Origin: Gammaproteobacteria bacterium
Lineage (GTDB): Bacteria > Pseudomonadota > Gammaproteobacteria > Steroidobacterales > GCA-2729495
Length of the DNA stretch: 46,165 bases
Reading direction: 5' to 3'
NCBI GenBank assembly: GCA_021773815.1
Contig: JAJFJS010000103.1
Coordinates: forward strand, 1 to 46,165
In this document: piece after piece, positions 23,810 to 45,415 of the stretch
How positions within the stretch are numbered: the stretch's first letter is position 1
Layout: each line of letters opens with the position of its first letter
Made by a program: the position numbers and the translations under genes
The notes under the pieces: model-generated
The model's database searches: none
What the model was told of the DNA's origin: nothing
What the model saw: the letters and a program-made list of their open reading frames with translations, nothing else

Positions 23810-25774
23810 ATGCCAGCCAAGCCCAACCGGCAAAACAAAAAGTCGACCACCAAAACCCGCGGCAAAGCCTCGGTGCCGGCATCGATCGGGCCGGTCGAAG
23901 ACCTCGAGAGTTACGTTAAGGCGGACTGGTGGCGAAATATCTTCAACGCCAATTACCTGCGTACCGATGGGGATGTCGTCGAGGATCCCGAGATCACGGC
24001 GGTCGAGATTGACGCGTTCCTCGCCATGCTGGATGCCCCGCAGGACAGCTGCATTCTCGATGTCTGCTGCGGCCAGGGCCGGCACGTGCTCGAACTGGCC
24101 CGCCGCGGCTACCGGAACCTGTTCGGTGTGGACCGATCGCACTACCTGATCTCCAGGGCGAAGAACATTACCCGCCAGCAGGGCCATGCGGTGACCTTTC
24201 GCGAGGGCGATGCGCGCAAGCTGCGGTTCCCGGACGACAAGTTCGACATCGTCTATCTGGCCGGGAACAGTTTTGGCTATTTCGAAACTGTCGAGGACGA
24301 TATCGCGCTACTCAAGGAGATGCGTCGCATACTGCGCCCCGACGGCCAGCTGCTGATCGACTTCACCGACGGTGACTATTTGCGGGCCCATTACGATCCG
24401 CGCAGCTGGGAGTGGATCGACAAGAACTATTTCGTGTGCCGCGAGCGATCCCTGTCGAAAGCCGGGGATCGGCTGATTTCACGAGAAGTCATTACGCATA
24501 CCAACAAGGGCGTCGTGGCGGATCAGTTTTACGCCGAACGACTCTACAACGAACAGGAACTGACGGAGCTGCTGGAGACCAACGGGTTCCAGCCATCGGC
24601 CGGCCAGCAGATGGTGACCGACTCCAAGCGCAACCAGGATCTGGGCATGATGGCGCAGCGCATCGTCATGACCGCGCGCTCCGACAAAGCCGAATCATCC
24701 CGGCGTGAGGAGCCGACCAAGGCGCGGAACGTCACCGTACTGCTGGGCGATCATCGCCGGGCGGACACGGTCAAACCCAGCGGCGCCTTCGATGAAGACG
24801 ACTTCCATACAATCGATGAACTGAAAAAAGCCCTGGCGCAGATCCCGGACTATCAGTTCTCGTATCTCGATAATCACGACAGCCTGATCGCTGACATACA
24901 GAATAAGGCAGACAAGACGGACTTCTTCCTCAACCTCTGTGATGAGGGCTTTAACAATGACGCGACGAAGGAGCTGCACATCCCGGCCCTGCTCGAGTTC
25001 CTGAACGTGGACTACTCGGGCGGCGATCCGCAATGCCTCGCGTACTGTTACGACAAGTCGCTGGTACGCGGTATCGCGACGGAAATGGATATTCCCGTGC
25101 CCGCCGCTTTCTCGATCGCTCCGGAGGATGTGACGTTCATTTCTCTGTCGCTTGATTTTCCGGTCATCGTGAAACCGAACTTTGGCGATTCGAGCGTCGG
25201 CATCACGACGGCCAGCGTGTGCCACGATGTGCAGCAGCTCGAGCAGGCTCTCGCGACGGTGCGCGAATCGGCCGGGTTCGATCAGCCCGTCCTGGTCGAA
25301 CAGTTTCTGACCGGCAAGGACATCAGCGTCGGCATTATCGGTAATCCCCCCGATGCCTATACCGTGCTGCCAATCATCGAGGAAGACTACTCGGGTCTCC
25401 CGGAAGGCCTGCCGCGGATCTGCGGCTACGAGGCAAAATGGGATCAGGAGTCAATCTACTTCAAGACCATCAAATCGGTGCAGGCGGACTTGCCGGCGGC
25501 GACTGTCGGCTTCCTGACCGCGAGTTGTATCAAGTTATTCCAGCGCCTGGGGTGCCAGGATTACGCGCGCTTCGACTGGCGTCTGGACGCCAACAACACA
25601 CCGCGACTCCTTGAGGTCAACCCGAATCCCGGCTGGTGCTGGGACGGCCACCTGGCACGCATGGCCGAATTCGGCGGCATGTCATACGCGAAGATGCTGC
25701 AGGAGATACTGCGCGCCTGCGATGAACGGCTGGTCGCACGCCGCGGCCGGGTTCGCCCGCGCCGCGCGGCCTGA
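23810..25774 (+). CDS. SAM methyltransferase / ATP-grasp ligase fusion
   Basis: A cytoplasmic protein of 654 residues. ATG 23810 is preceded by GGAG at 8 nt. A basic, disordered N-terminus (1-30) leads to a class I methyltransferase domain (about 40-270) with motif I ILDVCCGQG at 82-90, GVD with acidic Asp108, and RILRPDGQLLIDF. After a charged linker (about 285-300) comes a D-Ala-D-Ala-ligase-like ATP-grasp (about 300-640): LCDEGF, DYSGGD, nucleotide-binding Lys in FPVIVKPNFGDSSVGI, EQFLTGKDISV, and metal ligands in LLEVNPNPGW. It probably joins a carboxylate to an amine and methylates the substrate or product. The next gene is a deacylase 38 bp downstream. Product unknown. Confidence 0.9.
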   Translation: MPAKPNRQNKKSTTKTRGKASVPASIGPVEDLESYVKADWWRNIFNANYLRTDGDVVEDPEITAVEIDAFLAMLDAPQDSCILDVCCGQGRHVLELARRGYRNLFGVDRSHYLISRAKNITRQQGHAVTFREGDARKLRFPDDKFDIVYLAGNSFGYFETVEDDIALLKEMRRILRPDGQLLIDFTDGDYLRAHYDPRSWEWIDKNYFVCRERSLSKAGDRLISREVITHTNKGVVADQFYAERLYNEQELTELLETNGFQPSAGQQMVTDSKRNQDLGMMAQRIVMTARSDKAESSRREEPTKARNVTVLLGDHRRADTVKPSGAFDEDDFHTIDELKKALAQIPDYQFSYLDNHDSLIADIQNKADKTDFFLNLCDEGFNNDATKELHIPALLEFLNVDYSGGDPQCLAYCYDKSLVRGIATEMDIPVPAAFSIAPEDVTFISLSLDFPVIVKPNFGDSSVGITTASVCHDVQQLEQALATVRESAGFDQPVLVEQFLTGKDISVGIIGNPPDAYTVLPIIEEDYSGLPEGLPRICGYEAKWDQESIYFKTIKSVQADLPAATVGFLTASCIKLFQRLGCQDYARFDWRLDANNTPRLLEVNPNPGWCWDGHLARMAEFGGMSYAKMLQEILRACDERLVARRGRVRPRRAA

Positions 25775-28521: not shown

Positions 28522-28546
28522 CCGGCCGGATTGTGTCACCGGCCGG
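28522..28546 (+). terminator. Terminator-like hairpin after mgtE
   Basis: Perfect 8-bp stem CCGGCCGG (28522-28529 and 28539-28546) with a 9-nt loop, followed by only CTTT. It is placed 22 bp after the mgtE stop. It may end the mgtE transcript or attenuate read-through into 28711. Confidence 0.45.
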
Positions 28547-28710
28547 CTTTGGCGACACTGGTCCATATGCACGGGGGGTGCATCGAGTCGCCTGCGACGG
28601 CCGGTTCGGCGATACGCGGCCCCGTTGATCACGGCGTGCGACTCGACTGCCCCATCTGCACGGGGCGCCACCGTCGTGCACAACCCATCACCAGCCAGGG
28701 AGCGCATTCG

Positions 28711-29574
28711 ATGAGCCTGTTGGGCCGAATCAAGGGAATCATCAAACGGCCGCCGGGCCGCAACGGCGACGCTGCGCAATGGCCGTTCCAGCGCGGGCCA
28801 TATCGCGTTGTCGATGCAACCGCCACCGTCGTCGTGGCGACGCTCGACAACGCAAAGCTGGCCGATGACCTCGCCGCTCTGGCGCCCGCCGGCCTGTGCA
28901 TGACCTGCCCATTGACGGGCGGGCGCGGCGATATCGAAAAACTCGCGCACACGTTGATCAGCAATATGTCGATTCAGCACCTGGTCTGCGCCGGAGAAGA
29001 GCCGCGTAAACCGGCGACACTGGCGGCGCTGCGGGCGTTATTCACGGCATCCCCCGACGAGCTCAGCGATGCGATGAACGGGGCCGGCGCATCCAAAATT
29101 CGCCTCACGGCCACTGACGTGGCAGCGCTGCGCAAACAGGTGCAGTTCAGCGACATGAACGGCTGCGACCAGATCGACACGATCATATCCCGCGTGCGTG
29201 ATCTGTCCCTCGACACGCGGCTGCGCACGACCGGGTTCGTCGCCCCCGACGGCAGCGATCTCGTGCCGGAGAACCGCGTCATCGCGGCCAATAACATTAC
29301 GCATGCACTGGTCAATGACAAGGCCGGCTACTTTCGGATCACCATCGGCGAACGCGGCATCACCGCCGAGCACTTTAATAGCAAGGATGAGCCGTTGCGC
29401 GTGATCGAGGGTTCCGGTGCGCGCAGCATCTGCCTGACGCTGATACGCAACGGCTGGGTCAGCAAGCTCGACCATGCGGCCTACCTCGGGCGCGAACTGA
29501 CGCGCGCCGAGCTCGCCTTGCGCAACGGCAACGAGTTCGTCCAGGACGCTGACGGCTACCACGCCGAGCCCTGA
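28711..29574 (+). CDS. MtrA-like protein with DUF4346 C-terminus
   Basis: A protein of 287 residues. ATG 28711 follows AGGGAG by 9 nt. Residues about 24-165 match subunit A of tetrahydromethanopterin S-methyltransferase (MtrA): QWPFQRGPYRVVD, AGLCMT, GDIEKLAHTLISN, LVCAGEEP, LRKQVQFSDMNGC. Residues about 185-285 match DUF4346 (GYFRITI, AEHFNSKDEP, WVSKLDHAAYLGRELTRAE, FVQDADG). The position of the cobalt-ligating His84 of methanogen MtrA (within GSEVQGH) is here Lys100 (GEEPRK), so a His-on cobamide is unlikely. No C-terminal membrane anchor and no methanogenesis genes are present. It lies 20 bp upstream of the cotransporter gene. Function unknown. Confidence 0.82.
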   Translation: MSLLGRIKGIIKRPPGRNGDAAQWPFQRGPYRVVDATATVVVATLDNAKLADDLAALAPAGLCMTCPLTGGRGDIEKLAHTLISNMSIQHLVCAGEEPRKPATLAALRALFTASPDELSDAMNGAGASKIRLTATDVAALRKQVQFSDMNGCDQIDTIISRVRDLSLDTRLRTTGFVAPDGSDLVPENRVIAANNITHALVNDKAGYFRITIGERGITAEHFNSKDEPLRVIEGSGARSICLTLIRNGWVSKLDHAAYLGRELTRAELALRNGNEFVQDADGYHAEP

Positions 29575-32248: not shown

Positions 32249-32905
32249 ATGAAAAAACTAATCGCAATCGCAGTGCTTCTGCTGATCGGGTCCGCCGCTT
32301 CGGCCGCCACGGTCCAGTACGACCTTGAGAAGATCACGTACACCAACACCTTTCTGGGCGGCGCCCAGTGGACGGTGACGAACGACGCAACCGTGAACCC
32401 GAAGTTCCCGGGCGCCTGCACGACCTGCTACGGCACGCTCGAGGGCACCGGTAACCCGGCCACGGCCGCCAAGGCGACGGTCAATACCATCAGCAACGCC
32501 GTGACGGTGACCGGCGCCGGCTGGCACGGCGGTCCCCAGCAGGGCAACGAGTACGACGTGCTCTGGGACCTGACGACGACGGTCGGCGGCAATTCGGTGA
32601 CCAAGACATCGCAGACCTGCACCCAGATCGCCGGTGCTTTCTGCGGTACGACGATCTCCGAGTTCGGCGCCGCGGTGCTGGGCACCGGTACCGATCCGAA
32701 CGGTCGCGACCTCGTGACAGTCGGCATCGCCGGTTCGGCGCTGACGATCTACATCCAGCGGGCGCTGAGCGAGAGCCCAACCAGCCCGTTCACGCAGGGC
32801 TACACGCTGCAATTCACCGCGTCACCGGTGCCGGTGCCGGCAGCCGTCTGGCTGTTCGGTTCGGCCCTCGGCCTGATGGGCTGGATGCGCCGCAAAGCGA
32901 GCTGA
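32249..32905 (+). CDS. VPVPA-CTERM sorted exported protein
   Basis: A protein of 218 residues. ATG 32249 starts MKKLIAIAVLLLIGSAASA, a signal peptide. The mature part is Thr/Gly/Val-rich and beta-strand-like with two Cys pairs (ACTTCYG, TCTQIAGAFCG). The C-terminus VPVPAAVWLFGSALGL plus a basic WMRRKAS is a PEP/VPLPA-CTERM sorting tail: motif, membrane helix, Arg-rich end. Such tails are cleaved by an exosortase on the way to the surface or to extracellular matrix; no exosortase gene is visible here. The next gene has a near-identical tail. The mature domain is not recognised. Confidence 0.88.
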   Translation: MKKLIAIAVLLLIGSAASAATVQYDLEKITYTNTFLGGAQWTVTNDATVNPKFPGACTTCYGTLEGTGNPATAAKATVNTISNAVTVTGAGWHGGPQQGNEYDVLWDLTTTVGGNSVTKTSQTCTQIAGAFCGTTISEFGAAVLGTGTDPNGRDLVTVGIAGSALTIYIQRALSESPTSPFTQGYTLQFTASPVPVPAAVWLFGSALGLMGWMRRKAS

Positions 32906-33022: not shown

Positions 33023-33724
33023 ATGAAAATTCTTACTGCAATAATGCTACTTGCCGTCAGTGCGGCGTCACAGGCAGCGCTCATCGGCCGGGCACCGGCT
33101 ACGTCCGGTGGCACCGACTATCAGGCCTACTGGGATGACGCGCTGAACATCACGTGGCTCGCGGATGCGAACTATGCGGCGACGACCAATTATGACGCCG
33201 ACGGCCGCATGACGTGGGACAACGCGATGACCTGGGTCGGCACGCTCAACACGAGCTCGCTCCTGAACATTACCGGCTGGCGACTGCCGACGATGATCGA
33301 TGTCGGCAACGACGGATGCGCCGATCCGCTCAATACCAGTGGCGGCGACTGCGGCTACAACATCGACACGGCCAACGGTGAGATGGTCGATATGTTCTAC
33401 AACACGCTCGGCAACGTCGCGTTCTATTATCCGAACGGCAGCTTCCCGCAGCCCAATTTCGGACTGGCAAACTCCGGGCCGTTCACGAACCTCATCGAGT
33501 TCCTGTACTGGACCGACAGTGAGGTCGTGACCGACACGAGTTCAGCCTGGTACTTCGGCTTCCCGTCCGGCGCCCAGCGCCCGAACGGCAAGTCCGAGCT
33601 CTACCACGCCTGGGCCGTCGTCGACGGTGACCCGCTGGCAGCGCCGGTACCGGTACCGGCCGCGGTCTGGTTGTTCGGTTCCGCACTCGGCCTGCTCGGC
33701 TGGGTGCGGCGTCGCGCCGGCTAA
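33023..33724 (+). CDS. DUF1566-like VPVPA-CTERM protein
   Basis: A protein of 233 residues with signal peptide (MKILTAIMLLAVSAASQA). The mature part has the DUF1566/Lcl-type pattern: DYQAYWDDALNITWLADANY, MTWDNAMTWV, GWRLPTMID, FLYWTDSEV, AWYFGF and YHAWAVVDGD. It ends VPVPAAVWLFGSALGL then GWVRRRAG, a sorting tail almost identical to that of the gene 117 bp upstream, so both should use the same exosortase. RBS GAGGA precedes the ATG. A 14-bp-stem hairpin follows. Lcl-type domains often mediate binding or adhesion (family knowledge). Function here is inferred only. Confidence 0.9.
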   Translation: MKILTAIMLLAVSAASQAALIGRAPATSGGTDYQAYWDDALNITWLADANYAATTNYDADGRMTWDNAMTWVGTLNTSSLLNITGWRLPTMIDVGNDGCADPLNTSGGDCGYNIDTANGEMVDMFYNTLGNVAFYYPNGSFPQPNFGLANSGPFTNLIEFLYWTDSEVVTDTSSAWYFGFPSGAQRPNGKSELYHAWAVVDGDPLAAPVPVPAAVWLFGSALGLLGWVRRRAG

Positions 33725-33912: not shown

Positions 33913-35235
33913 TCAGTCGCTTTTTCCGGCGTCCGATATTTCCCTGTCAGACGCGGATTCCCGCAGTTCCTGAGGCTGCCTGGTACGAACGATATTGTGC
34001 GTCGCCGCCGCAATCCGCGAATGGTCCCAGGCCGAATTGAAGCGCAACACGTTGGACATCAAGACGGCGATATAGCGCGGATCCGAGGGCGCAGCGCCCT
34101 CCACCAGGGCCACGGAATTCATCAGGTTTTGCACGTTGCCCATGTACTTGCCGCAACGAAATCCTTCCTCCGGACGGCAGGAATAGAGCGACCCGCTCTT
34201 GAAGAACAATGCGGAATCTGCAAGTTCGGGCGCATAACCATACCGATAGCGACGCTTGGTCAGGTACATGTACTTTTTCATCTGCAGGCTGGACCATGAG
34301 TCAACCAAACGCCCCTGCTCGATACGGAACAACAGGCGAGCCAGTTCCCGCGGCGTTGAATAAGACGTAACGCCGGGAACCTTGCGCTTGGAATTTCCGG
34401 TAAAGAACGATCCCTGCCGAAGATTCGCCACATCGATGCCAGCTTCCGTCAACGGCTCCGTCACGACCGCGCTCGCCAGCACCGCCAGTTCGGATTTGGG
34501 TGTCTGCAAAAAAAATCGCGTACGCTCAGCCTCCGTGAGTTCGGAATAGGCGCTGCCGAAATGCCGCAGCAACATCGCCTCCCGCCAGATGATCGTTCCG
34601 GCGCCATTGGCGGACGCGGATATCGCGTGGTCAATCCATTCGCCCAGTCGAAACTGATCGTTCTCGTTCAGTACGGAAAACAGGTTCCGCTGCTGATCCG
34701 CGTCCCACTTGGGTACCTGGTGAATTTCATCGTTGACCCAGTCGCCTGCTCTCGATTCGACACCAGCGAGGACGGCCGCACGAACATCGGTGTCCGGATA
34801 GGCCTGCGCTAGCGCATGAAACAGACCCGCCATGCACAGAAGTTTTCCGATACTGCCGGGATTCTGCTTCAGGTCAGGCCGCAGCCCTGCCCAGCGTATA
34901 TCCGTTGCGTCGGAAAAATCGACCAGCACCATGCTGTAGCTCGGGTCTCTCCGGCGCAACATCTCGGACAACGCCGCCGCAAGTTCCTCGTCCTGCTCAA
35001 GCACATCGAAATCCGGCCCGTCATAGTCCACCAGGTGCAGGCGGATGCGTTCGCTGCTCCACAACGCACCGCTCGGCAGCTTCGGCCCGGTCGGCGCCTG
35101 CTGAACGAGTGCGTAGCCTTCGAGGCGACGGATGCCAGCCTCCGGCTCACCGTATAGCGGATACGGGTGTGCCGTACCGAATGGCAGCCCCGCACAACAA
35201 ATAGTGCTGACCAAAACACCGCTGACCTTATTCAT
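33913..35235 (-). CDS. Exported serine hydrolase A (beta-lactamase/PBP fold)
   Basis: A protein of 440 residues. ATG 35235 is preferred (AAGG 7 nt upstream) over the GTG directly before it. Signal peptide MNKVSGVLVSTICCAGLPFG. The three active-site elements of the penicillin-interacting serine hydrolases are present in order: SIGK (Ser128, Lys131), SAN (208-210) and KSG (346-348). The region between SAN and KSG contains STPRELARLLFRIEQGRL, as in class A-like enzymes. It should act on peptidoglycan, beta-lactams or another ester/amide outside the cytoplasm; substrate unknown. The start lies 4 bp after the stop of the dikinase-like gene, so it is the second gene of that operon. Confidence 0.82.
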   Translation of the reverse strand: MNKVSGVLVSTICCAGLPFGTAHPYPLYGEPEAGIRRLEGYALVQQAPTGPKLPSGALWSSERIRLHLVDYDGPDFDVLEQDEELAAALSEMLRRRDPSYSMVLVDFSDATDIRWAGLRPDLKQNPGSIGKLLCMAGLFHALAQAYPDTDVRAAVLAGVESRAGDWVNDEIHQVPKWDADQQRNLFSVLNENDQFRLGEWIDHAISASANGAGTIIWREAMLLRHFGSAYSELTEAERTRFFLQTPKSELAVLASAVVTEPLTEAGIDVANLRQGSFFTGNSKRKVPGVTSYSTPRELARLLFRIEQGRLVDSWSSLQMKKYMYLTKRRYRYGYAPELADSALFFKSGSLYSCRPEEGFRCGKYMGNVQNLMNSVALVEGAAPSDPRYIAVLMSNVLRFNSAWDHSRIAAATHNIVRTRQPQELRESASDREISDAGKSD

Positions 35236-35239
35236 CACA

Positions 35240-38185
35240 TTACCTTTCAGGCAGGCTTGTCATGTCGACAGAAACGCCGGTCGTGCTGCGGGTCCCGCCA
35301 GCGGGCCTGAGAGTGCTAATGATCTGGGTCGCGCGCTCATTGGATCTCTCTACGAGGGGACGAATCTGAAACAACGTCAACTCGCCTTCGACGAATCCAA
35401 ACTCGATATCCCACGGACGCTTGCGCCCATGTTCGTCGGTCACCGGCTCGAGCATGCGATCGACCTCGGCAGCGAGCTCTCGCAACTGCACGATGTCACT
35501 ATTTGTCAGGACAGCGCCCGACACCGCCGGCAACCACTCGACGCCGCCGGTCGCGGCGATTCGACGCTGATAGGGCGCCTTCGCCTCGGACATCAATACC
35601 GTTTGCCCGGCTGGCGTAACGACCACGCCCTCGGCAGCTTCTCCCGCAACGGCCCCGCCGACGCCCCAAGCGGTAGACACCGTTAATCCGGGTTCGTTCG
35701 GCGTCATCAGGTTCGCCGTCACCAGCACGCCGGATTTTTCCGACGGAACGCTTTGCATCAACAGCACCGAGGCAAAAATCTGCTCCGGGTTCGTCAACAG
35801 GCTGGAGCGCCACGCGAGCGCACGCGGACTCAGGACCGACGCCCAGACCCGTGGGATGCTCGCAAGCTGTGCATCGAGGTCGACCACGTTTGGGATCGTT
35901 TCCGACAGCCCAGCCCCGGTAAACTGCGGCAGGTCCTCGACGTTCGTATCGGAGCGGATAAACACCCCGTAACTGCCCGGCTCACCGAACTCTCGCTCCA
36001 TGGCCTCGGTCAGCTGCGCGCGAGTTTCGGGCATCAGGGATAATGCGGCGACCGCCGCGCGGACCTGTGCGAGTTCGGCGTCCAGTTCCTGCCGGCTCAT
36101 ATCACCGCGAGCGAGCGCCGCATACGCAGACCGAATGCGCGGCATCAGTCCGCTGTGTTCCATGTGCGCGGCATAGATCCCGAAAGGGATGGCCAGTGCG
36201 GGCGCGATCCGTCTCGGGAACATTTGATTGAGTTCACCGAGGTTGGCCGCCTTCGGCCCGATAATCCGGCCCGACATCTCGCGTCGGATGTCAGCCAGGT
36301 GCAAAATGTCGACGAGTTCAAGATCCGGCGCAGGCACGGTAATACGCACCTCATCGCCCGACCGCTGCGCCGCGCTCAGCAGGTGGGCGACGCCCGCCGC
36401 CTCGTCGGCGGAACGAAGAATGACATCGCCGCTCGAGCTCGCAACCAGTATCACGTCGCGTCCCGCCAGCGGCCTGATCAGATCGATGGTTTCCATGTCG
36501 ACCGCGACATTGGGAATACCGAAATTGCGCGCCAGCAACTGAACGTGTGAAAGCGCATTGCCCTCGCCCAACGTCAGGATCCCGGCGACCGGCTGTAGCT
36601 CCGCGATGGTCTCAGGCAACACTACGATATCGCTCGAGGCTATGTTGGCGGATTCTGCGGCATCAATGGTTTCGAAAATCCTCAATCGTCCGCGGGCAAT
36701 ACCCGGATTCAACGCGATAGCGGTATCAATTTTCTGACCTGCGATCTCGACCTCGCTGCCGGTCAGCGTACTGAGGTCACGATTGAGAACCCGCAGGACA
36801 TCACCCAGCATCCAGACCGGCGAACCGCGCAACAGGTCATCCGTAAAACGGACCGCGCGCGCATCTAGTGCAACGTAGTCGACCAGCGCTTCGGCAAACG
36901 TGTAGCGCACGGTACCGGCGGCCCAGCCGGGAACGCGCCTTAGTTGAGACAGCCCGTTTTCATACCGGGCCAGCGCAACGCGCGCGTCGCCGGCAAAGTT
37001 GAGGGCCGCGGCGGCCGATGTTCGTTCGCGATCTGACACCAGGCCTGAACCATATGCGCAATTCAGGAGCGCGCGGGTCAGACTGATCAGGTCCGCCCGG
37101 GGCAGTTCACGCTCCGCACGCATTTCACCAAAAGAGAGTCGAACCTCGGTATCCAGTCCCGCCAACGAATCCAGCAACGATAGCCGATGCAGCGGTTCGA
37201 GCGTGGCCAACAACGAAGCGCGGGCGCGATCGGACGCCGCGCACAGCCCGAGGACCCGGTCGTAAGGGACCGCATCCAGATGTCGTACTACGTCGTCGCG
37301 CCAGTCCGTCGCTTGCGGGGTCGGACCAAGCCGCCCGAGTTGGTTATGCAGTCGTGCACGACGCCCGCTCGCGCCATAGAGCTGATCCAGGTCATCGGAC
37401 AGACTGTTCGCCAGCGCCGCGACCTCTGCTTCGTCGACGCCGCGCGCCCAACCGCGCAACCTGTCGGCTGTTGTGGAACTGGGCGCCGTATGGATTTCAA
37501 CGCGCCAGACTTCCGCCCCGGCAAAGCGCTCGGCAAGCTCGACCGCTTCGCGCCTTACCCGTCGTGACAGGTCTGTTTCTTGTCCGTGTGGCACCACCCT
37601 GACGAGCTCGCGCATCAGCAGGTAGCGGTCCCCAGCCCAGTTCCAATCCGACAGCGCGTCCAGCAATATCGCCTGCCCGGCGACAATTTCATCTTCGACC
37701 TGAACCCGACCGCGGTATGTCTGCGCCCGACGCAGCACCCATCCGTCGTCGGTATCGACAAGATAGCGCTCCAGTGCGAGCTCGCGAAAACGCTGCTCCC
37801 TCGGCTGCGAGTCGAGCATGCCGGCAAAATTTTCCGCAGCAAAAATCGTACCGACGGACCAACCCAACTCGGCCAGCCGATTTCTCTGGGCGGAGTACTC
37901 CGCGTGCTGTTTGCCACCGCCTCTTTCGCTGCAGGCATACGCTACGGGGCTTTGCGTAGTACCGTCGTTGCAATACCAGAGTATGCGACTGTAAGGCCCG
38001 CGAGGATTCAACATCATCTGCTGGACAATATTCCTCGCCTCGTTCAATACTACCGACGAAGGCGAGTCGAGAGGACCTGCCTGAGCCGCGGTCTGGCCGA
38101 ATGAGACGCCAAACAGCGCCCATGACAACAGCAGAGGCGCTATCCCCGTAAAATCATGCCTACTGATTCCGACAGCGCGGAACAC
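35240..38185 (-). CDS. Exported glucan/water-dikinase-like phosphotransferase
   Basis: A protein of 981 residues from GTG 38185 (AAGGA 7 nt upstream). Hydrophobic signal sequence at about 13-35 (APLLLSWALFGVSFGQTAAQA). Residues about 40-490 are helical and unrecognised. Residues about 500-610 form a swivelling phospho-histidine domain (NALSHVQLLARNFGIPNV, His near 545). Residues about 630-945 form a PPDK_N ATP-grasp (IGPKAANLGELNQMF, IPFG, FIRSDTNVEDLPQFTGAG, WDIEFGFVEGELTLFQIRPL). The PEP/pyruvate barrel of PpsA is missing, and the order His-domain then ATP-grasp is that of glucan, water dikinases. The predicted reaction uses ATP to phosphorylate a substrate and water, giving AMP and Pi. Periplasmic location would need exported ATP. 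Confidence 0.85.
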   Translation of the reverse strand: MFRAVGISRHDFTGIAPLLLSWALFGVSFGQTAAQAGPLDSPSSVVLNEARNIVQQMMLNPRGPYSRILWYCNDGTTQSPVAYACSERGGGKQHAEYSAQRNRLAELGWSVGTIFAAENFAGMLDSQPREQRFRELALERYLVDTDDGWVLRRAQTYRGRVQVEDEIVAGQAILLDALSDWNWAGDRYLLMRELVRVVPHGQETDLSRRVRREAVELAERFAGAEVWRVEIHTAPSSTTADRLRGWARGVDEAEVAALANSLSDDLDQLYGASGRRARLHNQLGRLGPTPQATDWRDDVVRHLDAVPYDRVLGLCAASDRARASLLATLEPLHRLSLLDSLAGLDTEVRLSFGEMRAERELPRADLISLTRALLNCAYGSGLVSDRERTSAAAALNFAGDARVALARYENGLSQLRRVPGWAAGTVRYTFAEALVDYVALDARAVRFTDDLLRGSPVWMLGDVLRVLNRDLSTLTGSEVEIAGQKIDTAIALNPGIARGRLRIFETIDAAESANIASSDIVVLPETIAELQPVAGILTLGEGNALSHVQLLARNFGIPNVAVDMETIDLIRPLAGRDVILVASSSGDVILRSADEAAGVAHLLSAAQRSGDEVRITVPAPDLELVDILHLADIRREMSGRIIGPKAANLGELNQMFPRRIAPALAIPFGIYAAHMEHSGLMPRIRSAYAALARGDMSRQELDAELAQVRAAVAALSLMPETRAQLTEAMEREFGEPGSYGVFIRSDTNVEDLPQFTGAGLSETIPNVVDLDAQLASIPRVWASVLSPRALAWRSSLLTNPEQIFASVLLMQSVPSEKSGVLVTANLMTPNEPGLTVSTAWGVGGAVAGEAAEGVVVTPAGQTVLMSEAKAPYQRRIAATGGVEWLPAVSGAVLTNSDIVQLRELAAEVDRMLEPVTDEHGRKRPWDIEFGFVEGELTLFQIRPLVERSNERATQIISTLRPAGGTRSTTGVSVDMTSLPER

Positions 38186-39574
38186 TATTCGTCCTTCGAG
38201 CGAGTTCTGCGAATATTCGCGGACGTCCAGCCCCGTGAGGGGGTTACCTGCGCTATTCTCATTGGCAACATTTTTCTGATTCTCACTGCCTATTATCTGA
38301 TCAAGCCGGTTCGCGAAGGCTGGCTCGCTATCTCCGATATCCAGGGACTTTCAAAACTGGAAATCAAGGCCTATTCGGCTTTCGCACAAAGTCTTTTGCT
38401 GGTAGGCATTATGCCCTTTTACGCGTTGCTTGCCGCTACGCTGTCCCGCCGAAAACTGATATCGGCGGTCGGCGGGACCTTTGCCTTCATACTGGTCCTT
38501 TTCTGGCTGACGCAACCGGGCCTGCCCTTTGAAATGATGCCGTACGCCGGTGTCGTGTTTTATTTGTTTGTCGGCATCTTTAGCGTCACGCTGGTTGCTC
38601 AGTTCTGGGCCTTCTGCTCGGATCTTTACGGCGCCGAGCGCGGTAAAAGACTTTTTCCGATCGTGGCGGTCGGCGCGGCCAGTGGCGCCGTCGTCGGGTC
38701 CTGGCTCGGCGAGCAATTGGTCTCTCTGGAGGCCGTCAATGCGTTCGATCTGACACTGTTCGCCATCGCACCCCTGGTTGCCGCCATTGCCCTGGCCAAC
38801 TGGTCGGACCATCGAGGCACATACGGCAGCCCGTCGGAATGGACAACCAATCGCTGGAACGAACCGGCCGCCCCCACGAACGAGGGAGCCTATCAGCTGA
38901 TATTTCGCCATCGATATCTCACGGCAACGGCGTTCATGATTCTTATTTTTAGCTGGGTCGTCGCAAGCGGCGATAACATTCTGTTCGGAGTCGTACAGGA
39001 AAGTCTGAGCAATAGTCTTGCTGACCTGAATACTACGCCGGAAGGCTTCGGCAAGGCCCTGCAGGAAGCCACGACGGTATTCTACGGCGACCTGTATTTC
39101 TGGATTAATCTTTTTACCCTGGTCATTCAGGCGTTTTTCGTGTCGCGAATCTTGCGGTTTGGCGGCATGCGCATGCTACTGCTGGCAACCCCGTTCGTCT
39201 CTCTCGCCGCCTATGCGACGATGGCGATCGCGCCGATTCTCGGGCTCATCAAAATCGTGAAAGTGGCGGAGAATTCGAGTAACTATTCTGTCAATAACAC
39301 CGCGCGACATATGCTCTGGCTGCCAACTACCAAGGAAATGCTGTACCAGGCCAAACCCACGGTAGATACTGTATTCGTGCGACTGGGCGACGGCCTTGCG
39401 GCATTGACGATCCTGATCGGCACCCGGGTGATACATTTGGACAACAAGGGATTTATCGTGGTCAATATTTTCCTGGTGCTGGCGTGGATAGGCTTGAGCA
39501 TGTACCTGTACCACGAACATAAACGCTGGTCCGCAGCCTATGTCGAGAACTCGCCGCTACCGGTGCCGAAATAG
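38156..39574 (+). CDS. NTT-like nucleotide transporter (ATP/ADP translocase family)
   Basis: A 472-residue inner-membrane carrier with about 12 hydrophobic helices. The first helix and loop, ILIGNIFLILTAYYLIKPVREGW, carry the KPxRE motif typical of NTT/Tlc nucleotide translocases and their free-living bacterial relatives; LYGAERGKRLFPIVAVG and the KEMLYQAKPTVD segment also fit. Classic members exchange ATP for ADP. Whether this one carries ATP, another nucleotide or something else is not readable. ATG 38156 has no clear Shine-Dalgarno, and no other start lies before the first helix. Its first 30 bp overlap the 5' end of the divergent dikinase-like gene. The serine hydrolase B gene follows by 9 bp. 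Confidence 0.83.
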   Translation: MPTDSDSAEHYSSFERVLRIFADVQPREGVTCAILIGNIFLILTAYYLIKPVREGWLAISDIQGLSKLEIKAYSAFAQSLLLVGIMPFYALLAATLSRRKLISAVGGTFAFILVLFWLTQPGLPFEMMPYAGVVFYLFVGIFSVTLVAQFWAFCSDLYGAERGKRLFPIVAVGAASGAVVGSWLGEQLVSLEAVNAFDLTLFAIAPLVAAIALANWSDHRGTYGSPSEWTTNRWNEPAAPTNEGAYQLIFRHRYLTATAFMILIFSWVVASGDNILFGVVQESLSNSLADLNTTPEGFGKALQEATTVFYGDLYFWINLFTLVIQAFFVSRILRFGGMRMLLLATPFVSLAAYATMAIAPILGLIKIVKVAENSSNYSVNNTARHMLWLPTTKEMLYQAKPTVDTVFVRLGDGLAALTILIGTRVIHLDNKGFIVVNIFLVLAWIGLSMYLYHEHKRWSAAYVENSPLPVPK

Positions 39575-39583
39575 GTATTCATT

Positions 39584-40501
39584 ATGAAATTCCAGAATTT
39601 TCTCCCCGTGTTGGCCTTGTTGGCAACAATGACTGCCAGCGGCGCGGCAGAAGAATGGAAGCCACTGTACGATCGCATCGACCCCGAGTTCCAAACCGCT
39701 CTCGAGACGCGACTGAACGAGAACGCGCAATGGCGGAAGCTGATCAAGAACAGAAAAATGGCTATTTGCGTGGTCGACATGGGCAGCGAACCTGTGCGTT
39801 TCGCCCGTGTCAACGGCAACCAGATGATGTATGCGGCGAGCTTGCCCAAGATCGCGATCCTGGTTGCCGCCTACGTTTCGTTCGAGGACGGGTCGCTCGT
39901 GGAAACGGATGCGATCAATAAAGACCTCAACGACATGATTCGCGTGTCCAGTAATTCGGCCGCAACCCGCATGATCGAAAGAATCACCATGAAAAAGATT
40001 CAGGCTGTCATGCGCGATCCGCAATACGGCTTTTACGACGAATCGCGCGGGGGTGGCTTATGGGTGGGCAAACGATATGCATCGTCGGGTCCACGGGTAG
40101 GCGATCCGATGCACAATATCTCGCACGGCGCGACAGCTACCCAGGTATGCCGGGTGTTCTATCAGCTTGCGAACGGGAAGTTGATAAACCAGGAGCGTTC
40201 CAATCAGATGCTGGAGAAACTCGTCGACCCGAGACTGCACCACAAATTCGTTTCGCAGATCGATGAACGGGCACCAAAAGCCAAGCTGTTTCGAAAATCC
40301 GGAACCTGGCGACAGTGGCATTCCGACGCGATCATGGTGCAGGGCATCCGGTGGCGAAACTACATCCTGGTCGGATTGGTGGAAAGCGAGGATGGTGAGG
40401 CCATACTGAGAAACGTCCTGCCTGCAATCGAGGATTTACTGGTTCCATCTGAGTATGCAGAGGGCGGCTACGATATTCCGGGCAGCGATCCGCTTCCATA
40501 A
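39584..40501 (+). CDS. Exported serine hydrolase B (class A beta-lactamase-like fold)
   Basis: A protein of 305 residues with signal peptide (FLPVLALLATMTASGAA). Active-site elements: SLPK (Ser86, Lys89) in MMYAASLPKIAILV, SSN (122-124) and KSG (238-240) in FRKSGTW. It lacks an obvious Glu166-type deacylation motif at the expected omega loop, so it may be a DD-peptidase or esterase instead of a beta-lactamase. It shares the SxxK...SxN...KSG plan and a similar helical stretch (ATQVCRVFYQLANGKL) with hydrolase A on the other arm. The gene lies 9 bp after the NTT-like transporter gene, in the same operon. Confidence 0.85.
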   Translation: MKFQNFLPVLALLATMTASGAAEEWKPLYDRIDPEFQTALETRLNENAQWRKLIKNRKMAICVVDMGSEPVRFARVNGNQMMYAASLPKIAILVAAYVSFEDGSLVETDAINKDLNDMIRVSSNSAATRMIERITMKKIQAVMRDPQYGFYDESRGGGLWVGKRYASSGPRVGDPMHNISHGATATQVCRVFYQLANGKLINQERSNQMLEKLVDPRLHHKFVSQIDERAPKAKLFRKSGTWRQWHSDAIMVQGIRWRNYILVGLVESEDGEAILRNVLPAIEDLLVPSEYAEGGYDIPGSDPLP

Positions 40502-42700: not shown

Positions 42701-43081
42701 CTATTGGAAAAGGGTGTACAGCGCATAGCACCACAATAAGATTGCAGCGAAAAAGGTTAACAATACCGCCGCACTGGCCATGTCCTTGGCCTGCTTGATC
42801 AACGGATCAATATCCTTGCAAACCTTGTCAGCCAACACCTCGATCGAAGAGTTCAGCAGCTCAACGATCAAGACAGCGATATTCATCAGCAACAACTGTA
42901 CTTTGAGATAGACGCCAAACGGCAGCGTTATGGCGATCAGCGACAATAACGCGATCAGGATCAATTCTTGTTGAAATGCCGCCTCTCTGCTTGCAGCATG
43001 ACGCAACCCGTCCAGAGAATAGAAAAAGGCTCTGCCTATTCTTCTGATTGACCGAAACTGTTGCTTTTGCATGGTCTGCAC
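42701..43081 (-). CDS. dgkA: Diacylglycerol kinase
   Basis: A 126-residue inner-membrane trimeric enzyme that phosphorylates diacylglycerol to phosphatidic acid. Three membrane helices and the family motifs are present: RHAASREAAFQQEL, the catalytic region VELLNSSIEVLADKV, and AKDMASAAVLL. GTG 43081 or ATG 43072 (MQKQQF) may be the start. It is the last gene of an eptA-PAP2-dgkA operon. Phosphoethanolamine transfer from phosphatidylethanolamine leaves diacylglycerol, and DgkA recycles it (established logic of such operons). Confidence 0.96.
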   Translation of the reverse strand: MQTMQKQQFRSIRRIGRAFFYSLDGLRHAASREAAFQQELILIALLSLIAITLPFGVYLKVQLLLMNIAVLIVELLNSSIEVLADKVCKDIDPLIKQAKDMASAAVLLTFFAAILLWCYALYTLFQ

Positions 43082-43107
43082 CGAATTAGTACCCCTGCGC
43101 GCCCAGC

Positions 43108-43818
43108 TCAGGGTATCTCCAGAGCAATCAAGTCACGCGGGAATAGCCGGATATCCACCAGAACGATTGCATGAACAATCAGCCATGCCAACAACATCGT
43201 TGTCACGGTATGACTGATAAAATGATCCCCTATCAGCATCTTGTATATGCCCATTGTCCAGCCGAGCGCCAGAGTTGCAAACAAGGCCTGGCGCCGGTTG
43301 CGCCTGCTCTTGAACAGGAGAGATATGGATAGCAGAGCGAATCCTCCGCTGGCGTGTCCCGCCGGGAAACATCTCTGCTTCGGGACCGGGTTTTCACGCG
43401 GAGAATACGCTCCAAGGATCCCGACATATTCAATTTCGCCACCGAATTGAACAAGGTTTCGGGGGCACGCGACGTTGGTCACATTTTTCAGCAAGCCGAC
43501 GCTCCCCGGAAGCAGTGCCAGCGACAGAAGTACGATCCGAATTTGTCGGGTGTATGGACTCAGGGCCGGAGAAAAACGCGCAACAATGAGGCCGATGACC
43601 AGTCCTGCGCCCAGCACAACAAGACACGCCCGCGGCCCGTCATAAACCAGCAACCGGGTCACCGGTTCCGTGCGACTCCAGACCCACTGCTGTGCATTGC
43701 TGTCAAAAAGCAGCTGTTGCAGAAACATATCGAATGGCGTGAGTTCAAACCAGAACAGGCAGACGATGAGTCCGCACAATGCCCCTAAGATATTTCTGCG
43801 GCTGTTAGCCGCGCTCAT
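43108..43818 (-). CDS. PAP2-family membrane phosphatase
   Basis: A 236-residue integral membrane protein with about six helices. The three-part PAP2 signature is visible: KNVTNVACPR (motif 1, K-x6-7-R-type), CFPAGHASGGF (motif 2, PSGH-like with catalytic His) and GIYKMLIGDHFISHTVTT (motif 3, nucleophile His). PAP2 proteins beside phosphoethanolamine transferases act on lipid A phosphates or on isoprenoid/phosphatidyl phosphates; which one is not readable. Its start overlaps the eptA stop by 14 bp, and dgkA follows by 26 bp. It is translationally coupled to eptA. Confidence 0.9.
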   Translation of the reverse strand: MSAANSRRNILGALCGLIVCLFWFELTPFDMFLQQLLFDSNAQQWVWSRTEPVTRLLVYDGPRACLVVLGAGLVIGLIVARFSPALSPYTRQIRIVLLSLALLPGSVGLLKNVTNVACPRNLVQFGGEIEYVGILGAYSPRENPVPKQRCFPAGHASGGFALLSISLLFKSRRNRRQALFATLALGWTMGIYKMLIGDHFISHTVTTMLLAWLIVHAIVLVDIRLFPRDLIALEIP

Positions 43819-45415
43819 TAATCACAAACAGGGTCTTTTTCGCCGACAGAACTTCGGTATCCACCTCGAATGCAGAAAGCAATGAATGGAAAGCGGCATC
43901 GTGAGAATTTTCCACATGTCTGACATCCAGCGCACTGGTCAACTCGATGTCGGAGGTATCTCCCACCCATACGATGACCGGCACTTCGGTCTGCTCGTCA
44001 GGCGCCAGCATATTGGGCATTCCGTGCAGATACAGCCCCTTTTCACCCAACGACTCACCATGGTCGCTGACATAGAGCATGGCCGTTTCATACTGCGGCG
44101 TATTTTCTTGCAGCAAGCGGATGACCTGAGCGAGAAAATGATCGGTATAGAGAATGGCATTGTCGTAGGCATTGCCAATCTCCTCATCCGTACAGCGGGA
44201 CAGTTCTTCATACTGGCAGGCCGGTACAAATCGCTCATATTCCGCCGGATACCGCTTGAAATACGCCGGCCCGTGATTGCCCATCTGGTGCAGCACGATA
44301 AGAATATCGCCACGCGTCCCATCGATGAATTCCTGCAGGCCATTCAGCATTCCGATGTCGCGGCATTCGCCGTCACAAACCGGATTTCGGTCCGGATGTG
44401 AGAAGTCCTCGAAAACTACTCGTGTCGCCACACCTTTCGAACCGGAATTGTTATCTCGCCACAGGACACTGACTCCGGCGCGCGTCAGGACATCAAGAAC
44501 ATTTTCCGTATTCTTTGCCCGGCGAAGATCGAATTCTTCATAACCATCCAACGCAAACATACACGGCACGGATACTGACGTAGACGTTCCGCACGCAGAA
44601 ATATTAGTATAGCTGACCAGGCCCTGCTCTTTGGCCAATTCCGGATTCGTTTCACGCCCGTAGCCGTTCAGCGAAAACCTGTCGGCACGCGCGGTTTCCC
44701 CGACTACCATGATGATCAGTTCACGGTCTGTATCGGTAACCGGAATCGCTGCATCCTCAGCCACCAGAATCAATGGACCCGACTCAGCGACTCCACCGGC
44801 GCTCATCAGCATTCTCCCGGCAGAGTACAGAGCGAAGGTCGGATTGCTGTAGTACCGCAAGGGTTTATGCAGACGAAAAAACCCCGAGTACGCGTCACTG
44901 AAAGAAAACAGGCAGATTACAATGATGGCAACCGCACCACCGGCAGCTTGAATCTTGCGAAACAGTTCACGGCCACGGGCGGCACGGGAAAATGGCAGGC
45001 GCCACAAAACAAAGACCGGCAAGGCGCCGAGAAACAGAACTCGAAGTATTAATCCGCTATTGAAAAGATCCGCAGCCTCGGCAGTATCTGTCTCGAGAAT
45101 ATTCTGAATCATTCCCGTATCGATCACGGCACCGAACTGGTCCGAAAAATAGCCCAACATTGCTGTGATCAGGATGAATGCACTGGCGACGACCCGTACC
45201 GGAACGATACTGCCGAGCAGCGTCATCAGAACGATCAGCACACAGGTAAACCCCACGCTGACAGATAACAGAAAACCGAAGTTGCCCACACTCCAGGGAT
45301 ACACCTCCAGCATTTTCACGAAGAAGGCATGGTTACCGGTAAGCACCAGAAAGATTGCGGTGAAAACCACGATCGTGGTGGCGGACAACGTAAACGGAGA
45401 ACGCAGACTTGGCAT
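43805..45415 (-). CDS. eptA: Lipid A phosphoethanolamine transferase
   Basis: A 536-residue inner-membrane enzyme that moves phosphoethanolamine from phosphatidylethanolamine to lipid A phosphates, lowering surface charge. Five N-terminal membrane helices (about 10-175) are followed by a periplasmic alkaline-phosphatase-fold domain. Metal and catalytic sites: VGE with Glu240, the nucleophile Thr277 in SACGTSTSVSVPC, HQMGNHGPAYF, and DHGESLGEKGLYLHG. Cysteines for the usual disulfides are present (ACGT, VPCM, VCDGEC, ACQYEELSRC). Same family as chromosomal EptA and MCR proteins. First gene of an eptA-PAP2-dgkA operon; a PmrA-type box lies 63 bp upstream. No mobile-element genes flank it directly. 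Confidence 0.95.
   Translation of the reverse strand: MPSLRSPFTLSATTIVVFTAIFLVLTGNHAFFVKMLEVYPWSVGNFGFLLSVSVGFTCVLIVLMTLLGSIVPVRVVASAFILITAMLGYFSDQFGAVIDTGMIQNILETDTAEAADLFNSGLILRVLFLGALPVFVLWRLPFSRAARGRELFRKIQAAGGAVAIIVICLFSFSDAYSGFFRLHKPLRYYSNPTFALYSAGRMLMSAGGVAESGPLILVAEDAAIPVTDTDRELIIMVVGETARADRFSLNGYGRETNPELAKEQGLVSYTNISACGTSTSVSVPCMFALDGYEEFDLRRAKNTENVLDVLTRAGVSVLWRDNNSGSKGVATRVVFEDFSHPDRNPVCDGECRDIGMLNGLQEFIDGTRGDILIVLHQMGNHGPAYFKRYPAEYERFVPACQYEELSRCTDEEIGNAYDNAILYTDHFLAQVIRLLQENTPQYETAMLYVSDHGESLGEKGLYLHGMPNMLAPDEQTEVPVIVWVGDTSDIELTSALDVRHVENSHDAAFHSLLSAFEVDTEVLSAKKTLFVINERG

Follow-up and report, generated by a model that had tools for sequence, protein, structure and literature searches.

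Textbook accounts describe the periplasm as devoid of ATP, and the envelope reactions known to take place there are driven by lipid carriers, acyl enzymes or membrane potential. The closest described relatives of the proteins considered here are the glucan dikinases GWD and PWD, rifampin phosphotransferase (RPH), phosphoenolpyruvate (PEP) synthase and PPDK, the ADP,ATP carriers of the NTT (TLC) family, and PBP-A of Thermosynechococcus, a DD-peptidase with the class A β-lactamase fold. NTT carriers of free-living bacteria are described as largely uncharacterised by Major et al. 2017 (PMC5381601). In a contig of 46,165 nucleotides from a gammaproteobacterium (JAJFJS010000103.1; the whole stretch is called the window), relatives of these proteins form a four-gene module that encodes a dikinase-like protein (hereafter the dikinase), an NTT-type carrier and two serine hydrolases, A and B. 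The four families are co-inherited and remain together, export signals are present in three of them, and the signatures of dikinase, NTT carrier and serine acyl enzyme are intact. The individual proteins all fall into known superfamilies; no system was found that matches their combination and cell location, and the set suggests that ATP is used outside the cytoplasm in a manner not yet described. A preliminary description of the window had proposed such a module, with glycan or cell wall processing as its purpose, and had named three observations that would count against it: scattered homologues with no conserved neighbourhood, a dikinase lacking an export signal and a carrier from a non-nucleotide family.

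A genome scan yielded 308 dikinase relatives, and the best 80 of these 308 were taken as loci (labels L). Their record names point to Gammaproteobacteria, Desulfobacterota groups, Zetaproteobacteria, Magnetococcales and Beta-/Burkholderiales, with single records named Acidobacteria, Gemmatimonadetes and Eisenbacteria; such names can be wrong for metagenome-assembled genomes (MAGs). Culturable marine genera such as Parahaliea and Halioglobus are among the holders of the module. One record (L080), titled as a Klebsiella pneumoniae MAG, carries the module under what is probably a wrong label. The numbers of loci with each partner nearby, by clustering of open reading frames (ORFs) and by any profile hit, are 72 and 74 of 80 for hydrolase A, 53 and 55 for hydrolase B, and 45 and 46 for the carrier. 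Since many of the contigs are short, subsets with a minimum flank were used. Hydrolase A lies near the dikinase in 65/66 loci with at least 1.5 kb downstream and is its closest partner. Where both flanks extend to 5 kb or more (36 loci), hydrolase A is found in 35, hydrolase B in 31, the carrier in 24 and all four genes in 23. A fifth conserved partner was not observed, the next commonest neighbour family occurring in 9/80 loci (smaller families were left unannotated). The neighbourhood is thus conserved, and the grouping of the four genes is far beyond chance.

The set has been reshuffled yet kept, as the 38 loci that show all four genes (window included) display 21 arrangements; 32 arrangements are found among 81 loci when the window and incomplete contigs are included, with family hits below 90 bits excluded from both counts. 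The partners are also retained at a distance. Hydrolase B is absent from the vicinity of the dikinase in 25 loci and was found elsewhere in 7/7 of the corresponding genomes that were searched, and for the 34 loci without a nearby NTT, a carrier of at least 340 bits was found elsewhere in 10/12 genomes searched. In three of the five genomes searched for both (L041, L067 and L092), hydrolase B and the carrier adjoin at a second place.

The same association is observed in a phyletic sample of 166 genomes (165 genera; labels G) from the class of the window, in which the dikinase occurs in 17 genomes, hydrolase A in 18, hydrolase B in 17 and the carrier (at least 350 bits) in 18. Hydrolase A accompanies the dikinase in 17/17 genomes and is present in 1/149 others; the values are 16/17 versus 1/149 for hydrolase B and 16/17 versus 2/149 for the carrier at this threshold. 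By comparison, MdoG, an unrelated periplasmic family used as a control, shows no association (3/17 dikinase genomes versus 21/149 others). Fisher p-values are only indicative here because the sampled genomes are related, which overstates their independence; the contrast with the MdoG control stands despite this kinship. The one additional genome with hydrolase A (G096) is 81% complete and has the gene at a contig edge. The hydrolase B match of G211 is a fragment of 57 positions. Stops were flagged in 5/18 hydrolase A matches; the four that were read lie at the natural gene end (4/4), and the fifth is the G096 edge fragment.

The dikinase consists of an N-terminal region, a phospho-histidine domain and a C-terminal ATP-binding domain. 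In the window protein, PPDK_N (PF01326) covers residues 641-958 (E 1.4e-32), and PEP-utilizers (PF00391) matches residues 524-561 weakly (E 7.7e-4; 19.5 bits, under the cut-off of 23.1). In a one-by-one Pfam scan of 43 aligned homologues at E 0.1, both families were found in 43/43. The residues K645, R744, E750, D751, E928, Q940, R942 and H547 are invariant in 43/43 and include the lysine, arginine, glutamate, glutamine and arginine conserved in the ATP-binding domain of the PPDK/PEP synthase/GWD superfamily. In alignment with PEP synthase (8a8e), His547 falls on the SH motif and marks the domain as one that carries a phospho-acceptor histidine. Structure prediction, as proposed in the preliminary description, covered the dikinase and hydrolase A. 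The AlphaFold2 (AF2) model of the dikinase is good (mean predicted local distance difference test score (pLDDT) 88.7). Its ATP domain best resembles RPH (5hv1; VIA Z 32.9, root-mean-square deviation (rmsd) 2.4, 308 aligned), followed by PEP synthase (Z 30.3, rmsd 2.7, 302 aligned) and PPDK (Z 21.3, rmsd 2.7, 233 aligned).

RPH, PEP synthase and PPDK share the ATP-domain fold and the catalytic histidine motif with the dikinase, but their ATP domain is N-terminal, whereas that of the dikinase is C-terminal in an exported protein, and a PEP/pyruvate barrel family was detected in 0/43 homologues among the 11 Pfam families listed at E 0.1. The domain order, a phospho-histidine domain followed by a C-terminal ATP-binding domain, is instead that of GWD, and a weak GWD1_pHisD match is present in 7/43 homologues. 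Unlike GWD and PWD, the dikinase is bacterial, is exported and has a different N-terminal region. No carbohydrate-binding module was identified in the same Pfam listing (0/43), including CBM45 and CBM20, which serve glucan binding in GWD and PWD. An essential histidine is a feature of GWD as well, according to PMC12892837. The N-terminal region (residues 45-479) consists of a small α/β part and then a long helical part. It contains Q93 (43/43), H94 (40/43), H232 (43/43) and the pair Cys72 and Cys85 (42/43 rows, with a gap in the remaining row). Because the VIA rows cover residues 517-950, this presumed acceptor-binding region was barely probed by structure comparison.

Export is predicted for the dikinase and both hydrolases. 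The signal-peptide rule (a hydrophobic 9-mer, a net positive charge ahead of it and small residues at -3/-1), which in its relaxed form was applied only to ORFs containing the anchor motif, was passed by 70/76 testable N-termini of the dikinase, 67/74 of hydrolase A and 34/43 of hydrolase B. As controls, 0/8 cytosolic PEP synthases and 33/410 internal dikinase windows passed. With an earlier, first rule the values were 61/79, 47/74 and 46/54, respectively. Several of the failures are wrong start codons, as judged by eye. The predicted export signal of the dikinase is thereby conserved. The cysteine pairs of the dikinase and hydrolase A (42/43 and 35/35, respectively) would agree with an oxidising compartment.

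The carrier of the window reaches the Pfam cut-off for TLC (PF03219) only just (21.1 bits versus 21). A profile of 31 module carriers matches two solved structures over nearly the full length, the ADP,ATP carrier protein 1 (9j3n; E 2e-35) and the chloroplastic/plastid NTT1 (9j3j; E 1.7e-28); the next PDB match is a designed coiled coil (E 0.009). Lys400 and Asp404 are invariant (31/31) and align with the KGKAAID motif of the solved carriers. Two further positions align with acidic residues of these structures and are occupied by Glu (20) or Asp (11) at position 273 and by Asp (24), Ser (6) or Thr (1) at position 156. The nucleotide-carrier kinship is therefore borne out by PF03219 and by the solved ADP,ATP carriers.

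The module carriers differ from other NTTs in their linkage to an exported enzyme, in their presumed outward direction and in their lineages. In a midpoint-rooted tree of 70 NTTs, 16/18 non-module NTTs fall into one clade, and the module carriers occupy several deep lineages apart from it (window type, L050 type, L034 type, long type and L022/L090 type). In this tree, different carriers seem to have been recruited into a single role; since it is only midpoint-rooted, polyphyly of the module carriers is suggested and not proven. Long NTTs of 660-752 residues lie beside the dikinase in seven loci (L040, L045, L046, L057, L066, L074 and L089), in two of which (L074 and L089) the long NTT is additional to a short carrier and could, speculatively, return AMP or inorganic phosphate. 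HEAT repeats are found in the long NTTs of L040 and L066, some under the Pfam cut-off, and are clear in a 925-residue NTT of L022; none were detected by Pfam in the long NTT of L074. NTT-HEAT fusions of unknown function are described by Major et al. 2017 (PMC5381601).

Both hydrolases match Beta-lactamase2 (PF13354; E 6.2e-6 for A and 5.3e-15 for B), and the two families match each other with a profile-profile probability of 98.8%. Hydrolase A retains SxxK, SxN, K(S/T)G and a cysteine pair in 35/35 sequences, and hydrolase B retains SxxK, SxN, KSG and H181/H220/H246/D248 in 34/34. A sequence search of the PDB with hydrolase A gave no match at E 0.1. Its AF2 model (pLDDT 92.7) adopts the class A β-lactamase fold, with tied similarity to the β-lactamase 8eo5 (VIA Z 25.4, rmsd 2.8, 258 aligned) and to PBP-A (2j7v; Z 24.9, rmsd 2.7, 257 aligned). 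The hydrolase B profile matches PBP-A weakly (2j7v; E 7.5e-4). The active-site motifs of class A β-lactamases are thus present in both proteins, and their fold in the model of A. A deacylating glutamate of the ω-loop is not conserved in either family by alignment; the sole invariant glutamate of A (E307) aligns beyond the ω-loop, and in the alignment of B no conserved glutamate follows SxN. This glutamate is the key difference between PBP-A and β-lactamases according to PMC11189452. A PBP-A-like combination of this fold with the lack of the ω-loop glutamate is indicated by model and alignment for A, and for B at the level of sequence. Because the glutamate is not conserved, DD-peptidase-like activity is the better guess for both enzymes. 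Hydrolase A differs from PBP-A in its greater length, its candidate disulfide and its tie to the dikinase.

We infer from these features the direction of transport, ATP as the donor, an envelope acceptor and the role of the hydrolases. The inner-membrane carrier would exchange cytoplasmic ATP for periplasmic AMP or ADP, and the periplasmic dikinase would bind ATP in its C-terminal domain. His547, on a middle domain that swivels, would take up the β-phosphate of ATP and hand it on to an acceptor bound at the N-terminal region, and AMP and inorganic phosphate would be released. The two DD-peptidase-like hydrolases would prepare or process this acceptor, for which a molecule derived from peptidoglycan or another molecule of the envelope is the most likely candidate. 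That the four genes constitute one extracytoplasmic ATP-using system that phosphorylates an envelope acceptor, perhaps related to peptidoglycan, has about an even chance of being correct (roughly 0.5). The narrower proposal that, in free-living Gram-negatives, an NTT exports ATP in exchange for AMP and thereby powers a periplasmic dikinase that acts on peptidoglycan or its fragments, together with two DD-peptidase-like partners, is tentative and falls short of even odds. Eukaryotic secretory-pathway kinases fed by ATP importers of the endoplasmic reticulum or Golgi offer a parallel in the import of ATP into a compartment for phosphorylation; the proteins are unrelated, and the likeness is an analogy only. 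The preliminary description fares well with respect to the conserved set, the export and the NTT family. Its glycan substrate finds no specific support, with no carbohydrate-binding module in the dikinases and MdoG in few dikinase genomes. Osmoregulated periplasmic glucan was rejected as a general acceptor since MdoG/OpgG occurs in only 3/17 dikinase genomes.

Several observations weigh against the proposed ATP-using system. Transport and catalysis by the module proteins are predicted from sequences and models. NTT carriers of intracellular bacteria import nucleotides, so that it would be unusual for ATP to flow outwards. In the module carriers, the LRDTKD motif of solved NTTs is not conserved at its position (Lys50 is invariant nearby), and Pfam identified no recognisable acceptor-binding domain in the dikinase. 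An NTT hit of any kind is present in 17/17 dikinase genomes and also in 25/149 others, so that NTTs occur without the dikinase as well. The genome of L035 contains no NTT match, that of L025 only weak NTT types of about 220 bits and that of L045 only a long NTT of 731 residues. Conversely, G179 has a module-type carrier (L105, G179:C1:91280-92533) without the other three genes. G068 (98% complete) lacks both hydrolase B and a full-length carrier, although the dikinase and hydrolase A are present. Its dikinase (L118, G068:C52:34900-38000) is interrupted by a stop codon that is real in that record, possibly through decay of the module or a sequencing error.

The carrier may move a substrate other than ATP or ADP (NAD, another nucleotide or the acceptor itself), with the dikinase using a donor that the carrier does not supply. 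According to PMC5381601, the characterised PamNTT4 is a carrier of NAD, and most NTTs beyond the classical clade have yet to be characterised; the marginal Pfam score of the window carrier also leaves room for this. Such a substrate is unlikely given the nearly full-length match to two ADP,ATP carriers, the invariant Lys400 and Asp404 on the KGKAAID motif and the intact ATP site of the partner dikinase. Nucleotide scavenging, in which the carrier would import ATP or other nucleotides, the dikinase would run on or regenerate environmental nucleotides and the hydrolases would free nutrients, appears somewhat less probable still. It would fit the import of host ATP by the characterised NTTs of intracellular bacteria, as reported in PMC5381601, and the dikinase reaction of PPDK is reversible. 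The 80 record titles, however, name no group known as obligately intracellular, two DD-peptidase-like enzymes would be ill-suited to nucleotide salvage, and the set contains no further gene family, the next commonest occurring in 9/80 loci, where neighbours were not annotated singly.

A periplasmic island for antibiotic inactivation, with an RPH-like drug kinase and two β-lactamases, is very improbable. It is suggested by the fold of the ATP domain, which matches RPH best, and by the class A β-lactamase fold of hydrolase A. It conflicts with the domain order of the dikinase, which is unlike that of RPH, with a search of 72,556 plasmid records that returned no dikinase relative at E 1e-20 and with the strict retention of four parts, which would be atypical for resistance genes. 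The ω-loop glutamate, by which PBP-A chiefly differs from β-lactamases (PMC11189452), is conserved in neither hydrolase, which also speaks against it. Mere neighbourhood inherited within one clade, which the kinship of the sampled genomes and the resulting overstatement of independence by the Fisher p-values would favour, is contradicted by the 21 arrangements among 38 complete loci, the several phyla in the record titles, the co-occurrence of unlinked genes and the lack of association of MdoG, and is scarcely credible. An anti-phage defence system was rejected, as 0/4 window proteins match PADLOC at E 0.1.

The four ORFs form two back-to-back pairs at the coordinates and on the strands first described, with 9 bp between the carrier and hydrolase B. 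The gap of 4 bp reported earlier between the dikinase and hydrolase A holds only if ATG is the start and shrinks to 1 bp from GTG; across the family, the start of hydrolase A overlaps the dikinase ORF by 4 bp in 39/70 cases. On a first-start reading, the divergent dikinase and carrier genes overlap by 30 bp in the window, by 29-30 bp in L014, L016, L019 and L022 and by 81 bp in L015. If the first starts are correct, the promoter of each arm would lie inside the other gene.

Table 1. Coordinates of the four-gene module and its features within the window
Feature	Coordinates	Strand	Basis
Serine hydrolase A, 441 aa, predicted exported, PBP-A/class A β-lactamase fold	33913..35238	-	ORF, PF13354, AF2 model
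SxxK motif of hydrolase A (Ser129, Lys132)	34843..34854	-	kept in 35/35 aligned rows
Dikinase-like protein, 981 aa, predicted exported	35240..38185	-	ORF, PF01326 + PF00391, AF2 model
Predicted Sec signal peptide of dikinase, residues 1-36, ending ...TAAQA before GPLD	38078..38185	-	sequence and family-wide rule
N-terminal region of dikinase, residues 45-479, presumed acceptor-binding	36749..38053	-	no Pfam family
Phospho-histidine (PEP-utilizers-like) domain of dikinase, residues 480-600	36386..36748	-	Pfam and AF2 model
Codon of dikinase His547, catalytic-histidine equivalent	36545..36547	-	His in 43/43; alignment with PEP synthase
C-terminal ATP-binding domain of dikinase, residues 623-952 (K645, R744, E928, Q940, R942)	35330..36319	-	invariant residues and VIA
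NTT (TLC) family carrier, 472 aa, 12 hydrophobic segments	38156..39574	+	PF03219, PDB profile match
Serine hydrolase B, 305 aa, predicted exported, same superfamily as hydrolase A	39584..40501	+	PF13354, motifs
SxxK motif of hydrolase B (Ser86, Lys89)	39839..39850	+	kept in 34/34 aligned rows
Head-to-head overlap of divergent genes, 30 bp, given first start codons	38156..38185	.	sequence

Other features are found elsewhere in the window. An EptA-type phosphoethanolamine transferase (NF028537; 588.8 bits, cut-off 500), a PAP2 phosphatase and a diacylglycerol kinase stand in a row on the minus strand (42701-45415), a gene set for lipid A modification close to the module. Two adjacent proteins (32249-32905 and 33023-33724) share the C-terminal sequence VPVPAAVWLFGSALGLxGWxRRxAx, which by eye resembles a PEP-CTERM (VPxPA) sorting tail. 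A protein with MtrA (tetrahydromethanopterin S-methyltransferase subunit A) and PterinBD-DUF4346 domains (28531-29574) is flanked by an MgtE transporter and an SLC12-like permease, and a single ORF (23810-25774) has matches to a methyltransferase and to a D-Ala-D-Ala-ligase-type ATP-grasp.

Curated NCBIfam cut-offs were reached by 0/4 window proteins and by 0/7 homologues from L050 and L078. Searches of the open-licence literature turned up no account in which an exported dikinase is paired with an NTT carrier, in line with the earlier remark that no described system has these parts. The wide retention of an exported dikinase with a nucleotide carrier makes the use of ATP outside the cytoplasm directly testable. 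The module offers a concrete role for the NTT carriers of free-living bacteria and places two families of PBP-like hydrolases in a context. If the proposed export of ATP to a periplasmic dikinase is true, it would represent a new modification of the envelope and would assign a role to NTT carriers in free-living bacteria.

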